Below, in pieces: positions 4,699 to 9,149 of a stretch of 36,751 bases of DNA. Position 1 is the first letter of the stretch, and each line of letters begins with the position of its first letter. Origin of the DNA: a virus; IMG/VR virus record IMGVR_UViG_3300042351_000244, positions 1 through 36,751 of that record, one strand, 5' to 3'. The position numbers and the translations under genes were made by a program. The notes under the pieces are model-generated. The model made no database searches. It was given only the letters and a program-made list of their open reading frames with translations, and was not told the DNA's origin.

Positions 4699-5985
4699 TT
4701 ATAGTTTTCCGTAATCCAAACCCCAACTAGCCTTAACAGGAAACCCACTCCCTTCAATGATTTCCTTCAATCCCCTAATTAATTGCTTATCCACATCAGT
4801 AGGAACATCAAAAAGGAACGAGTCATATGTGTATAAACAAAAGTTAATACCACTTCCCTTTATATAATCCAATATTTTTCTCATAACCTCAATGTTCATT
4901 TCAGTCTCAACGGCTTGTAATAAGTAGTTGAATACCTTTTGTGCATTTGGTTGTTCTATCCACTCTAACGGAATCTCTCTATGTGGTGTTTGTAGGAATC
5001 CTTTCTTTTGTACATCAATCCATAAGTTATCAATGTAATCAGCTACGGCATTAAAATATGGAATTGTACGGAAATCATCATCGATACCACCATAAAGTAA
5101 TTGGAACGTAATACCTTTTGATTCATCCACACTACATCCATATTGTTCGGCTAACCACTCATGCACACTGGTTGTTGGGAGTTCGAAGTTCACCAACTTA
5201 CCAATCAAACGGGGGTGATATGCGTTATAATCCATTTGTAGGAATATCCCATCCGATACGAAACATTCTCTACTACCATCCGTTTTGTTTAGGGCGGCAT
5301 AGTTCACACCACCATGTCTATTTGATGGTCTACCTGTCACCGTAAATGGATTGTATTCGGTGTACACTAAGTTATCGGATGAAAGCTGTTTGGAAGCTTG
5401 AGGCCATCTATCAATAAATTTTTTCCCATCGACACGGATTCCAAATTGTTCGATATCTGAAAGGGTAGGTATAAACACTTCATTGTACCATTTAAGTGTA
5501 GGAGTATAATGTTCTTTATGGAAGTACTTACCGAATTGTGGTTGTATTGCTTCTACAATCTTCATTAGAGGAAGGGATTGTATCAAGTCATCTCTATACC
5601 CTTTGTGAGTTAGAGTTGAAAGGAGGGGATTTAAAGGGGCTTCATAATCAATTACCTTTGCTTCCTTTCTAAAATATGCCGAATCTACATCATATAAATT
5701 TACCGAAACATTAAGAGTATGTAATATCTTCTTTTTTTGAAATATCCACTTTTGTCCGTTGGTATTGAGTACCGTCTCTATTTGCTCAATAGATAGCGAT
5801 AGAGCGTCTGTATGTTTATGTGGTAGAATGTACAATCCATCAGAACATCGTACAACTACGAGCGAAAGAGAAGTGTTTAACGGATGCTTACTATTATCTA
5901 CCCACAATGGATACCAAATAGATGCTTCCGTTTCCAGCTTTTCTTTTAGTTGATTAACTTCTTCAATAGACTCAATAATCTTCAT
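4699..5985 (-). CDS. Short divergent family A DNA polymerase (PolA-like)
   Basis: I start at the ATG at 5985 (428 aa, MKIIES...), because an upstream ATG at 6021 would add a hydrophobic dozen residues lying inside the tmRNA terminator. Numbering from 5985, motif A is FLQMDYNAYHPRL with catalytic Asp252, the O helix is SKGITFQLLYGG (Lys290, Tyr298-Gly299), and motif C is YTYDSFLFDV with Asp388. TGRPSNR at 217-223 corresponds to the TGRLSS motif before the palm. Both catalytic aspartates and the O-helix Lys/Tyr are kept. The O-helix Arg four residues before the Lys is replaced (Val/Asp region), and the usual HDE of motif C is YDS. The ~180 N-terminal residues are where a 3'-5' exonuclease would be, but I see no complete DxE triad, so proofreading may be lost. 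It probably acts in phage DNA synthesis or repair. Finding it beside tail genes and a tmRNA is unusual. Confidence 0.88.
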   Translation of the reverse strand: MKIIESIEEVNQLKEKLETEASIWYPLWVDNSKHPLNTSLSLVVVRCSDGLYILPHKHTDALSLSIEQIETVLNTNGQKWIFQKKKILHTLNVSVNLYDVDSAYFRKEAKVIDYEAPLNPLLSTLTHKGYRDDLIQSLPLMKIVEAIQPQFGKYFHKEHYTPTLKWYNEVFIPTLSDIEQFGIRVDGKKFIDRWPQASKQLSSDNLVYTEYNPFTVTGRPSNRHGGVNYAALNKTDGSRECFVSDGIFLQMDYNAYHPRLIGKLVNFELPTTSVHEWLAEQYGCSVDESKGITFQLLYGGIDDDFRTIPYFNAVADYIDNLWIDVQKKGFLQTPHREIPLEWIEQPNAQKVFNYLLQAVETEMNIEVMRKILDYIKGSGINFCLYTYDSFLFDVPTDVDKQLIRGLKEIIEGSGFPVKASWGLDYGKL

Positions 5986-5990
5986 AAGTA

Positions 5991-6022
5991 CAAAGATACA
6001 AAAAAAATCCCAAACTACCAAA
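5991..6022 (-). promoter_or_regulatory. Possible Bacteroidota-type promoter for the polymerase gene
   Basis: TATCTTTG at 5998-5991 fits the TAnnTTTG -7 box of Bacteroidota housekeeping promoters, and a TTTG at 6022-6019 lies 20 nt upstream, near the -33 position. The predicted transcript would start almost at the ATG at 5985, so the message could be leaderless. The upstream TTTG falls in the terminator loop. This is the only upstream gap of more than 30 nt without a TATTTATA box. Confidence 0.35.
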
Positions 6023-6036
6023 TATAGTTCGGGATT
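6000..6036 (-). terminator. Intrinsic terminator directly after the tmRNA
   Basis: A 12-bp stem (6025-6036 with 6006-6017, containing one G-U pair) encloses a 7-nt loop and is followed by eight T on the minus strand. It begins 5 nt after the tmRNA discriminator base. Confidence 0.85.
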
Positions 6037-6040
6037 TTAG

Positions 6041-6426
6041 TGGAGATGACGGGACTCGAACCCGTGTCTTACAAAGTAACCATAATACCAGCATGTCACA
6101 CGTTTAGGATAAAGTTTAATCTTATTCACTTTCCAAAATAATTGGGGCCGTATGGTTAATACAGCGATTCCACCATCCTATCAGTATTAAACAGCCGATA
6201 GGTAGAGCTGCGGTTGTTCACTTCTATTTAAATCCCACGAGTGATGCGGGAGGTGATTAGGCTGCTACAGCGTAATCGTAAGCTCCTACAAATGCCATAG
6301 CATCTTCGAAGTTCCAAGTAGATAATTCTACGTCGGTTATTGTTTTGTACAGATTTAAAGACATCTAGCACTTCTGTCTACGTGTGATACTATGTTTCTC
6401 ATTGCAATCAATTCCGTAACATCCCC
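6041..6426 (-). ncRNA. ssrA: Phage-encoded tmRNA (ssrA), tag peptide GAYDYAVAA
   Basis: The 5' end GGGGATG (6426-6420) pairs over 7 bp, with one G-U, to CATCTCC (6048-6042), followed by discriminator A at 6041. The 3' domain has a T arm with a 5-bp stem and TTCGAGT loop, close to bacterial tmRNA 3' ends. CCA is not encoded (CTA follows) and must be added. The tag frame GGA GCT TAC GAT TAC GCT then GTA GCA GCC TAA at 6286-6257 gives GAYDYAVAA. It has the same length and layout as the Bacteroidota tag GENNYALAA and keeps the protease-recognised Ala-Ala end. The 386-nt length is normal for one-piece tmRNA. It would rescue stalled ribosomes and mark products for proteolysis during infection. A TATTTATA box lies 6 nt before the 5' end and a strong terminator follows, so it is a separate transcription unit. 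Pseudoknots were not modelled. Confidence 0.93.
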
Positions 6427-6432
6427 ATAGTT

Positions 6433-6440
6433 TATAAATA
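6433..6440 (-). promoter_or_regulatory. Candidate promoter box TATTTATA upstream of the tmRNA
   Basis: The box ends 6 nt before the predicted mature tmRNA 5' G, the distance expected between a -10 element and a start site. This case ties the motif to a likely transcription start and fixes its orientation. Confidence 0.6.
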
Positions 6441-6459
6441 CAAATATACGAATAATAAT

Positions 6460-6828
6460 TTAGATTACCAAATCTTTCTTTTTTCTAAATTGAACTAAGT
6501 TTGGTAGATATGATTGTATTAATGGTATTTTATCAACACCTGTCTTTATTGATTTAAAATTACATTCTCTTATTTCTTCATCAGTTCCTTTGATTTTCCA
6601 ATCCAATGATACTGTACTATAAAATGCGTTTTCTACAAATTTACTATATCCAATATAATCTACTTCAGTTATTCTGGATTGTGTATCATTTGCTTTTTGT
6701 ATAAAATATCTTACAATATATCCTCTTTGATAATCCAAATCCGTTGGAGTTGGGATATATGGTGATATTCGCTTTTCTCTAAACTCACTTCCTATATTTG
6801 CTACTTTGTTATATCTACTTAAATCCAT
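6460..6828 (-). CDS. Small tail-cluster protein, function unknown
   Basis: This 122-residue protein is polar and rich in Tyr, Lys and Ile, with no signal peptide or membrane segment. It starts MDLSRYNKVANIG and ends in a basic RKKKDLVI. Its start lies 8 nt after the stop of the baseplate hub candidate, so it is the last gene of the tape measure/baseplate operon, just before the tmRNA promoter. A small baseplate wedge or tail-completion component is the natural guess from position, but I do not recognise the family. The middle part (RGYIVRYFIQKANDTQSRITEVDYIGYSKF, residues ~35-64, read as two short strands) suggests a mixed beta fold. The coding call is firm; the function is open. Confidence 0.75.
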   Translation of the reverse strand: MDLSRYNKVANIGSEFREKRISPYIPTPTDLDYQRGYIVRYFIQKANDTQSRITEVDYIGYSKFVENAFYSTVSLDWKIKGTDEEIRECNFKSIKTGVDKIPLIQSYLPNLVQFRKKKDLVI

Positions 6829-6836
6829 TTTTATTA

Positions 6837-9149
6837 TTATTTAGGTTGTAATCTAAATCCACCTTCTATTTCAGTTTTCCAAATCATATCGGTAATTGTT
6901 TGTTTTACAGATGTTACTTGAAAGAATCCAGTTTCTTCATATGCAGTTGGAATACCACCAACTCTAAATTTATCTCCTCTTTTAATACCACTTATACCAT
7001 GAATACTAAAACCAAATTTAATTGGCATTAGTGCAGATACTCCTTGAGCTTCACCAACTTTATCCTTACCATTTTTTAATGATTCAAATACCAATTGGTC
7101 ATTATATGCCGTAATATAAGTCATTTTTTCCAATTCTTGATTAAAATCTTCGTTTGGTAGTATATGAACTTTAGGTGCATATCCGATTCTACTTAAAAAT
7201 AACTGCATAGCCTTTTCTTTAGCTTTTTTAGCAGCTTCTTCTGAGGCCTCAGCTGCAGCTTCCTGTTCTGCTGCGGTTGGCGCAGCTGTGGTTGTATTTG
7301 GAGTACCTTGTTTTTTCTCAATACTTTTTAGAACCAAATCTGGCTCATCGGTGAAAAGACCTGCTTTCTTTTTACTATTTACTGATGGCGAAGAACCATT
7401 AACTTTTTGTCCTAATCTATTTCCAATAATTTGATTCATTTTTGCACCACTAATATCCAAATCCAATGATGCATCCATAAAAACAGAATCAGAACCAGCT
7501 ACATCAAATCTATATGGAAGTCCGCTTGTTTGTGGAGACATATTCATATCAACTACACTTAATTCAGTACCACCTTTTGAATCATTTGTTTCCAAAATTT
7601 GGAAATCCCACATACCACATGCTGCCCCAGACATACCATTAAGAAGTTGATAAAGTGCATCTTTTATAGAAAAGTTTTTTGTTTCTAAAATACCTTTTGC
7701 AAACTCCAAATTAACATAAAGGTCATCTAAGAATCCATATGAGTATGCTGGTTTGTTCAATCCTAAAAATGTACCATCATCTCCATATTGAATTTGACCA
7801 GGTGTTCTACCCGCAACCATACCTTTAACAATATTTTGGTCATATGGGAATCTCACTTTTGCTCCACCATATTCTACAGAACAATTTAAAACTGAACTAA
7901 AATCCGTTTGTGCCGAATTTTCAGATGCCTGTAATAATGAAAATTTAGGTGTATTTGGATTTGGTATAAATAATTTATTTTTATCCGTACTAAATATTTT
8001 TGGAAATGCCGCACATACTGTATTTTTTGTATTAACACTAACACTAACTATATTAGGTCCTACTTTATATGCTTCAAATCCAATTTTACTTAAAATTCCA
8101 GATAATACACCAAATTTTATAAAACCAGAATCTCCAATTAAATCAGTACCTTCCGGTAAATCTACTTTTCCAGATGTTGTACTTCCATCGGATGCGGTAT
8201 CGGTTGTTTCCGCCCCACCACCAAATTTAAATCCAAGAAAACTAGTACCTTTCATTTTACTATTCATCTCAGCTTTTACATTTTCATCTACGTTTACGAA
8301 ATTTAAAGGAGATGCGTAAAATGCATCCGTTATTAAATCCTGTACTTTTTTACTTTGTTTATTACTGGGTAATCTATTGAAACCCATCATAAATCTTTTT
8401 TTACCTAAATTTGGTTCTGCTGATATTTTAGATACATCATATGCTTTAGCTGATTCGGCTGTTTGTCCTTCTTTATCTTCGGTGTTATCGGCTGCATTAA
8501 GAAATGCTGGTAGTTCGGTGAATCCCGTACATTTTACACTTATCGTCCATTCTTGTCCACTCATTGAAACACTACCACCCGTTATAAATCCTAAATAATT
8601 ATCATATTGCCCATTGGATGCTTTTCTTTTTTTATTAACGGTTTGAAATGATTGATTGGCCCCAACAGAATCTCCACTTAATGTTGGAGTAAATTGAGAT
8701 ACACCACTTGGTGTATTCCATCCCCATTCTAAAAATATTGTATATCCCGGTTCTAAAAAATACTTACACATTTTATCCAATTGTGCTCTTGTATAGCATG
8801 TTATAGAAAATGTTGCTTTTCTAGAAATATTACCAGCCCCCTCATCTACTTCAATTGAAGTTATATTTGGTTTAGGTCTATAACCGTGAAAATCATCAGC
8901 AGTAACAAGCCCCTTACCATCCCAAGTATATCCTAATGTACCACTCATCGTATTATTTCCATATATAGAACCAGCGCCACCAAACAATGAAAAATTGGGA
9001 TTTGATATTAACTGACATCCACTTCCTACACCAGAAGCAACCCTAACCCAAGCATTTAGATTAGACACTTTCATGATGTTCCCTTTTCTGGAACTTAATT
9101 CGTCTTGAACGTGTTGTGCAATATTTGAAAAATTTGGAAATGATGACAT
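6837..9149 (-). CDS. Putative baseplate hub / late-control gpD-like tail protein
   Basis: This 770-residue protein has an N-terminal segment with SNLNAWVRVASGVGSGC and an early beta-rich domain (SRKATFSITCYTRAQLDK, then PGYTIFLEWGWNTP around 155-165). The last ~70 residues (RGDKFRVGGIPTAYEETGFF, then VTSVKQTITDMIWKTEIEGG) look like the C-terminal barrel of gpD/gp27-type hub proteins, where a GD..RV.G.P..Y...G.F.V pattern recurs. An Ala/Glu-rich stretch around 620-645 is probably a flexible or helical linker. It follows the gp53-like gene by 15 nt and precedes the 122-residue gene by 8 nt, within the baseplate set. It would sit under the tail tube at the centre of the baseplate. The exact homologue in T4 is uncertain (gp27, or a hub-spike fusion without visible lysozyme residues). 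The structural role is fairly secure from position and fold clues. Confidence 0.7.
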   Translation of the reverse strand: MSSFPNFSNIAQHVQDELSSRKGNIMKVSNLNAWVRVASGVGSGCQLISNPNFSLFGGAGSIYGNNTMSGTLGYTWDGKGLVTADDFHGYRPKPNITSIEVDEGAGNISRKATFSITCYTRAQLDKMCKYFLEPGYTIFLEWGWNTPSGVSQFTPTLSGDSVGANQSFQTVNKKRKASNGQYDNYLGFITGGSVSMSGQEWTISVKCTGFTELPAFLNAADNTEDKEGQTAESAKAYDVSKISAEPNLGKKRFMMGFNRLPSNKQSKKVQDLITDAFYASPLNFVNVDENVKAEMNSKMKGTSFLGFKFGGGAETTDTASDGSTTSGKVDLPEGTDLIGDSGFIKFGVLSGILSKIGFEAYKVGPNIVSVSVNTKNTVCAAFPKIFSTDKNKLFIPNPNTPKFSLLQASENSAQTDFSSVLNCSVEYGGAKVRFPYDQNIVKGMVAGRTPGQIQYGDDGTFLGLNKPAYSYGFLDDLYVNLEFAKGILETKNFSIKDALYQLLNGMSGAACGMWDFQILETNDSKGGTELSVVDMNMSPQTSGLPYRFDVAGSDSVFMDASLDLDISGAKMNQIIGNRLGQKVNGSSPSVNSKKKAGLFTDEPDLVLKSIEKKQGTPNTTTAAPTAAEQEAAAEASEEAAKKAKEKAMQLFLSRIGYAPKVHILPNEDFNQELEKMTYITAYNDQLVFESLKNGKDKVGEAQGVSALMPIKFGFSIHGISGIKRGDKFRVGGIPTAYEETGFFQVTSVKQTITDMIWKTEIEGGFRLQPK

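Follow-up and report, generated by a model that had tools for sequence, protein, structure and literature searches.

Several phage-encoded tmRNAs have been described. One list holds ten of them (PMC4131195), tmRNA genes have been reported from 402 of 18,146 phage genomes (PMC9004378), and huge phages with both a tmRNA and their own SmpB are on record (PMC7162821). The commonest tag length in the tmRNA database is given as 10 residues, with an extreme short form of 2 (PMC11915505). In many reports phage tmRNAs appear as counts of genes, and their tags as called by software. The phage tmRNA analysed here resembles Bacteroidota ssrA (RF00023) in its one-piece form, its acceptor stem and T arm, the UAA plus two bases before the G of the resume codon and the Ala-Ala end of its tag. 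The Bacteroidota tags read here, of the GENNYALAA kind, however, have 9-10 residues (59/59 by ARAGORN's reading), whereas the tags of this phage family have 23-26.

The window, i.e. the whole stretch of DNA that was analysed, is a virus record of 36,751 bases. ARAGORN and Rfam model RF00023 both placed a tmRNA on its minus strand (6038/6040-6426), which was the sole tRNA or tmRNA reported by ARAGORN and the sole Rfam match above threshold. The RF00023 match scored 73.8 bits (E 4.8e-27; gathering score 47) over the full length of the model (1-374 of 374), which covers pseudoknots 2-4 with a low posterior in the middle. By ARAGORN, RF00023 and the relatives, the mature RNA extends from 6426 to 6041. 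Its acceptor stem has 7 bp (GGGGATG/CATCTCC) and includes a G3-U70 pair, which is an alanine identity element. The T stem reads ACGGG/CCCGT, and the T arm with the 3' acceptor strand occupies 6042-6065 (minus strand). CCA is not encoded, since the 3' end of the RNA is A-CTA. The one-piece form, the 7-bp acceptor stem, the T arm and the lack of an encoded CCA had been described in an earlier sequence-only reading of the locus and are present as described. We collected 62 distinct viral tmRNAs, the window's included, from 175 instances, some contigs having been fetched more than once. In 61 of them the 7-bp acceptor stem is fully paired with G3-U70 (exception: L266), and the T stem occurs among these 61 in eight versions, each fully paired, as would be expected of a working RNA. 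The E value and the paired T-stem variation among relatives confirm that the tmRNA match exceeds chance.

The tag reading frame runs on the minus strand from a GAC resume codon to a TAA stop (6257-6334) and encodes 25 aa, DVELSTWNFEDAMAFVGAYDYAVAA. All 62 tmRNAs keep this frame open up to Ala-Ala-stop and carry 23 different tags of 23-26 residues. Their C-terminal ends are YAVAA, YAYAA, LAVAA, YALAA, EMAA and similar, and ahead of this end lies a conserved phage-specific segment of about 15 residues, VELSTWxFEDAMAFVG. Where the DNA alignment has gaps inside the tag, their lengths are divisible by three. In the part upstream of GGA 6286, pN/pS was 0.46 in frame versus 1.17 and 1.55 when the frame was shifted, values that are pairwise averages over related sequences and indicate a direction, not a formal probability. 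Across 31 distinct tag frames, taken with their stop codon, mean heterozygosity in the same part was 0.167, 0.198 and 0.352 for the three codon positions.

A search beyond this family sampled viral tmRNAs by their 5' end, giving at least 120 stretches, of which 88 had an ARAGORN tmRNA and 32 had none and were dropped. One of the sampled tmRNAs, L476, carries a homologous long tag, GNVQLSEMTFEKAIEFVNEYEMAA. A DNA pattern for part of this tag matched viral_contigs at three positions, each of them within a tmRNA (L476, L539 and L540). None of 16 window proteins was detected in the 4.5 kb of L476, and tRNA genes adjoin the tmRNA in both L476 and L539. A DNA search for cultured relatives with L539 returned 26 records; the 25 listed all matched at one 76-base tRNA-Thr stretch.

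Both the recurrence of the peptide motif in this second phage group and the predominance of synonymous changes in the tag frame argue against an explanation in which the tag is long but its extra residues act as a spacer or meet an RNA need, so that tagged proteins would fare as they do with the host tag. The Ala-Ala end of all 23 tags would agree with such an explanation, as would a 5-6 bp stem near the tag start in 62/62 tmRNAs, in five stem versions of which two differ only in length; in the window it corresponds to a possible, weak hairpin inside the first tag codons (GTAGA-ATTA-TCTAC, 6318-6331, minus strand). However, for a single region stems reaching 5 bp are within chance, occurring in 1640 of 6300 shuffled regions (26%) and in 328 (37%) of 891 windows taken elsewhere in these RNAs, and in the DEMST group the hairpin would take in the resume codon. 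The case for an RNA structure is therefore weak, and we consider the spacer or RNA explanation, the main competitor of a recognition role, unlikely.

A second alternative would make the RNA a decoy, tying up host SmpB and so preventing trans-translation by the host, a role that has been suggested for the tRNA-like-domain-only form of phage DS6A (PMC4131195, PMC11915505). The search for SmpB in 20 phage records, which found none, would suit a decoy; but a decoy requires no frame, and tag frame, stop and resume context are kept in 62/62 tmRNAs, so this alternative is very unlikely. ClpP and Lon_C were likewise each found in 0 of 20 phage records, and control searches for SmpB, ClpP and Lon_C gave matches in 10, 12 and 13 of 14 genomes. 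Since some of the phage records are perhaps incomplete, these absences are weak evidence, but because of them the phage probably uses AlaRS, EF-Tu, SmpB and proteases of its host.

The context of the tag indicates where it starts. In the RF00023 alignment the consensus resume codon GCA is aligned with GAC 6334-6332, the canonical resume codon of the window. It is preceded by AATAACC (6335-6341, minus strand; A at -4 = 6338) and lies 12 nt after the end of pseudoknot 1 (AGACA/TGTCT and GTGC/GTAC; 6347-6379, minus strand). In E. coli tmRNA the A at -4 relative to the resume codon (A86) is almost fully conserved, its replacement by C or U abolishes activity in a survival assay, and it has been proposed as a ruler for the frame (PMC2481249). 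All 59 tmRNAs of our bacterial sample have A four bases ahead of the codon at which ARAGORN lets translation resume. The motif with which we located resume sites in the 62 viral RNAs itself contained this A, and the same RNAs were therefore rechecked by a motif-free alignment, in which the GAC site has A at -4 in 62/62 and G as the first codon base in 62/62. Pseudoknot 1 was examined in 12 of the 62 and ends 10-12 nt before the resume codon in ten, with several different stem sequences; the other best pairings were at 18 nt (L004) and 1 nt (L052).

The sequence-only reading had begun the tag at GGA 6286 (nucleotide 141), with nine residues in the Bacteroidota layout and divergent middle positions. 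This frame does start with a Gly codon and end in Ala-Ala-stop like GENNYALAA, and 60 of the 62 RNAs have G as the first base of that codon. Against it, the window has U at -4, the motif-free alignment shows C (39), T (15) or G (8) but never A in this column, and pseudoknot 1 is 60 nt away; in the RF00023 alignment a start at this codon means that 47 nt are inserted between pseudoknot 1 and the tag end. The codon also varies, being Glu, Asn or Asp in relatives whose tags end in ESFDYAVAA, NSFDYAVAA and DSFDYAVAA, and coding conservation reaches 16 codons further upstream. Resumption at GGA 6286 is thus extremely unlikely. Of the checks proposed with the earlier reading, the covariance-model match supports the tmRNA as such, whereas the refuting condition on the resume site tells against GGA 6286. 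GAYDYAVAA followed by a stop is present (6286-6260, stop to 6257), but as the last 9 of 25 codons and not as a complete tag. The peptide added to stalled proteins would most likely have 25 residues, and the difference from the bacterial tags read here therefore consists of about 15 extra conserved residues, not of substitutions in the middle. ARAGORN's own tag for the window, EQPQLYLSAV (nt 208-240), lies outside the conserved frame and was rejected. The program reports wrong tags for several relatives as well as for the window; long tags of this kind may escape lists compiled by software alone.

The window contains T4-like tail genes (tube, sheath, baseplate hub and wedge, tail fibre). Among the neighbours of the tmRNA with a family match, baseplate and tail genes lie upstream, and a DNA-polymerase-like gene (phrog_17; 4699-5985, minus strand), syntenic with the tmRNA, and a nuclease lie downstream. 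The two genes directly upstream (6460-6828 and 6837-9149) had no family match. A promoter-like arrangement of TTTGG, 19 nt and TATATTTG (6441-6472, minus strand) was classed as Bacteroidota type by what we take to be the promoter consensus of this phylum. The sequence-only reading had noticed a promoter box but put it 6 nt from the gene; the TATATTTG box (6448-6441) is 14 nt upstream of the tmRNA 5' end. In the relatives displayed, TATATTTG or TATATTTA is found near the same place. An intrinsic terminator is present as a hairpin directly 3' of the tmRNA (6004-6038, minus strand; 1 terminator hairpin found versus 0.3 expected), and a similar hairpin with a T run follows the tmRNA in the relatives displayed. 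The polymerase gene has a promoter-like TATCTTTG box of its own (window 5998-5985) that ends 5 nt before the ATG, and a TAnnTTTG box stands 4-6 nt before the polymerase ATG in 26 of 33 loci displayed; the polymerase mRNA may be leaderless.

The association of tmRNA and polymerase was followed in 79 loci with a related polymerase, seven of which had less than 700 nt upstream of the polymerase gene and were dropped before the count. A tmRNA is present in 71 of the remaining 72 (66 by ARAGORN, five more by Rfam), and the five missed by ARAGORN carry DEMSTMTFDSMMEFIGASEYAYAA. The gap between tmRNA and polymerase gene, usually 50-93 nt, measures 311-1191 nt in 15 of 66 such loci. Two tmRNAs (L048 5511-5943 and L073 4388-4809) have about 45 nt extra after the tag; these hold GTGTGATTCGAACACACC, which resembles an antisense tRNA T arm. 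A wider polymerase search, covering the best 80 among the matches listed, gave at least 62 further loci. Among these 62, ARAGORN detected a tmRNA in L357 alone, and Rfam, run on 12 of them, in L357 and L355; L354 starts inside a tmRNA. Visual reading, with translation as confirmation, showed long tags in L355 (AVELSTMTWEDAMAFVGADYAIAA; polymerase 64% identical) and in L357 (GREISTFTFEDAMAFVGAEEYALAA; polymerase 51% identical), where the resume codon is GGC as in bacteria and ARAGORN gives the tag as AEEYALAA. Ten distant loci (polymerase 43-55% identical) showed no Rfam tmRNA in the available stretch. Because of these ten, and because L045 (5300-6003; polymerase 74% identical) has an ORF before the polymerase gene at the expected place of the tmRNA, the tmRNA is not indispensable. 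In DNA searches for cultured relatives, the window stretch matched eight phage records, over no more than 4-6% of the query, and L357 matched none.

Of 198 Bacteroidota genomes sampled, 197 gave a tmRNA match, which exceeded the cut-off in 189. Nine of the 20 weakest genomes had no tmRNA over the cut-off and their tags were left out. The 62 bacterial loci fetched were not a random draw (30 best-scoring, 12 from the weakest genomes and 20 from lower on the list), and three without an ARAGORN tmRNA (L561, L589, L627) were dropped, which left the 59 referred to above. A further 106 loci were picked by the GENNYALAA pattern and are therefore uninformative on tag length; in those displayed, GGC is preceded by a similar context. 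A tree was built from 82 tmRNAs after removal of the tag frame; it has a midpoint root and some long end branches, and it united 25 polymerase-linked and three other phage rows in one clade (99/93), which holds both phage groups. This clade and 20 bacterial rows, named Bacteroidota genes among them, lie on the same side of a branch with 98/96 support, and the 34 other rows on the far side include bacteria of the same phylum. The exact pattern MAFxGA..DYAVAA gave 0 matches in genome_contigs (84,980 species). The tag profile gave three weak matches in 395 Bacteroidota genomes, none with an ARAGORN tmRNA, and four in 10 genomes (E 0.17-0.61) that were taken as chance. The simplest account is that a phage ancestor took up a Bacteroidota ssrA gene and that its tag then grew by about 15 residues. 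A Bacteroidota host is suggested by the tree, by the TATATTTG-type box and by a weak similarity (25%) of the polymerase to that of Flavobacterium phage immuto, in which Rfam detected no tmRNA. That the phage gene is a functionless passenger copy of host ssrA would agree with its position beside Bacteroidota genes in the tag-free tree, but the synteny with the polymerase gene in 71/72 loci, the retention of a promoter-like box and a terminator by the relatives displayed and the paired T-stem changes leave this explanation with a negligible probability.

Long tags are not a general rule among phages. By ARAGORN's reading, the tag of Bacillus phage G has 13 residues; of the 88 sampled viral tags, 72 have fewer than 20 residues and 16 have at least 20. 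Nor do long phage tags share an acidic charge: among twelve, five had a charge of -5 to -7, one of -1 and six were positive. Unrelated long tags were read by ARAGORN in L451, L499, L494, L441 and L479 (e.g. AESNFDFAPSVAEADAFLKASGFVDAELLAA, 31 residues), and phages may have acquired long tags on several occasions. A 484-kb phage record (LR756508.1) contains a 112-nt tmRNA match of 58.2 bits (L350 1501-1612; 414804-414915 of the record) that looks like a tRNA-like domain alone. The same record has a full tmRNA at 92434-92880, whose tag may by eye have 36 residues ending in AAV and is given by ARAGORN as GRRKPLSW.

From these features we infer a trans-translation pathway run with host parts, although expression, charging, tagging and proteolysis are predicted from sequence features. 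Host AlaRS would charge the phage tmRNA through G3-U70, and host SmpB and EF-Tu would carry it to stalled ribosomes. Translation would resume at GAC 6334 and add alanine plus the 25-residue tag, whose YAVAA end would serve as a ClpX-type signal for host proteolysis. ClpX reads an Ala-Ala end, and since this end is kept, proteolysis is probably retained. The VELSTWxFEDAMAFVG segment might then alter the speed of handling, or which host adaptor or protease handles the tagged products. We regard this account as a whole, with a 25-residue tag in which the segment is a second recognition element, as the best explanation and a probable one. Taken by itself, the role of the segment as a second recognition element is tentative, at slightly less than an even chance. 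More doubtful, though possible, is that the segment forms a phage-specific address, recognised by one particular adaptor of host or phage, which would mark products of infection time apart from host-tagged ones; the phage would then control whether a given truncated protein is destroyed, spared or moved. The idea that the phage tag perhaps alters the fate of stalled products, put forward in the sequence-only reading together with the phage-encoded tmRNA, stands. No partner of the segment emerged, and the tag profile had no match among PDB sequences. An amphipathic segment found no support for the window tag, as 1657 of 2000 shuffles scored as high; it was also unsupported for the consensus and for the tags of ET08 and L451. 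For the L539 tag, 36 of 2000 shuffles scored as high.

Our search of open-licence papers did not find this long-tag family. Several described systems share single features with it. The Bxz1-type tmRNA of mycobacteriophages (ET08, LRRHood) is also phage-encoded with an acidic 25-residue tag (ATDTDATVTDAEIEAFFAEEAAALV); however, that tag ends in AALV and has no clear sequence relation to the window tag, its gene lies in a tRNA cluster, and in our tree it stands apart from the window's phage clade on a long branch. The ssrA tag of Mesoplasma florum is described as unusual in both length and sequence, with a changed protease partner, Lon, which reads the tag where ClpXP is absent (PMC8138137). The phage tag keeps its Ala-Ala end, and neither Lon nor ClpP was found in the 20 phage records searched for each, which speaks against a Lon-directed long tag of the Mollicutes type. 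Methylophage Melnitz resembles our case in having a phage tmRNA of probable bacterial origin, but the Melnitz RNA is reported as a permuted two-piece form of alphaproteobacterial lineage (PMC9004378), whereas that of the window is one-piece. Mycobacteriophage DS6A is described as carrying a tmRNA derivative with the tRNA-like domain only and without a tag frame (PMC4131195, PMC11915505), in contrast to the frame of the window tmRNA. Phage tmRNAs and long tags were thus known separately, and the conserved long-tag family would be the new part. The corrected reading gives a family of 23-26-residue tags, with coding conservation across phages, in RNAs close to short-tag bacterial genes, and makes the benefit that a phage draws from its own tmRNA a testable question.
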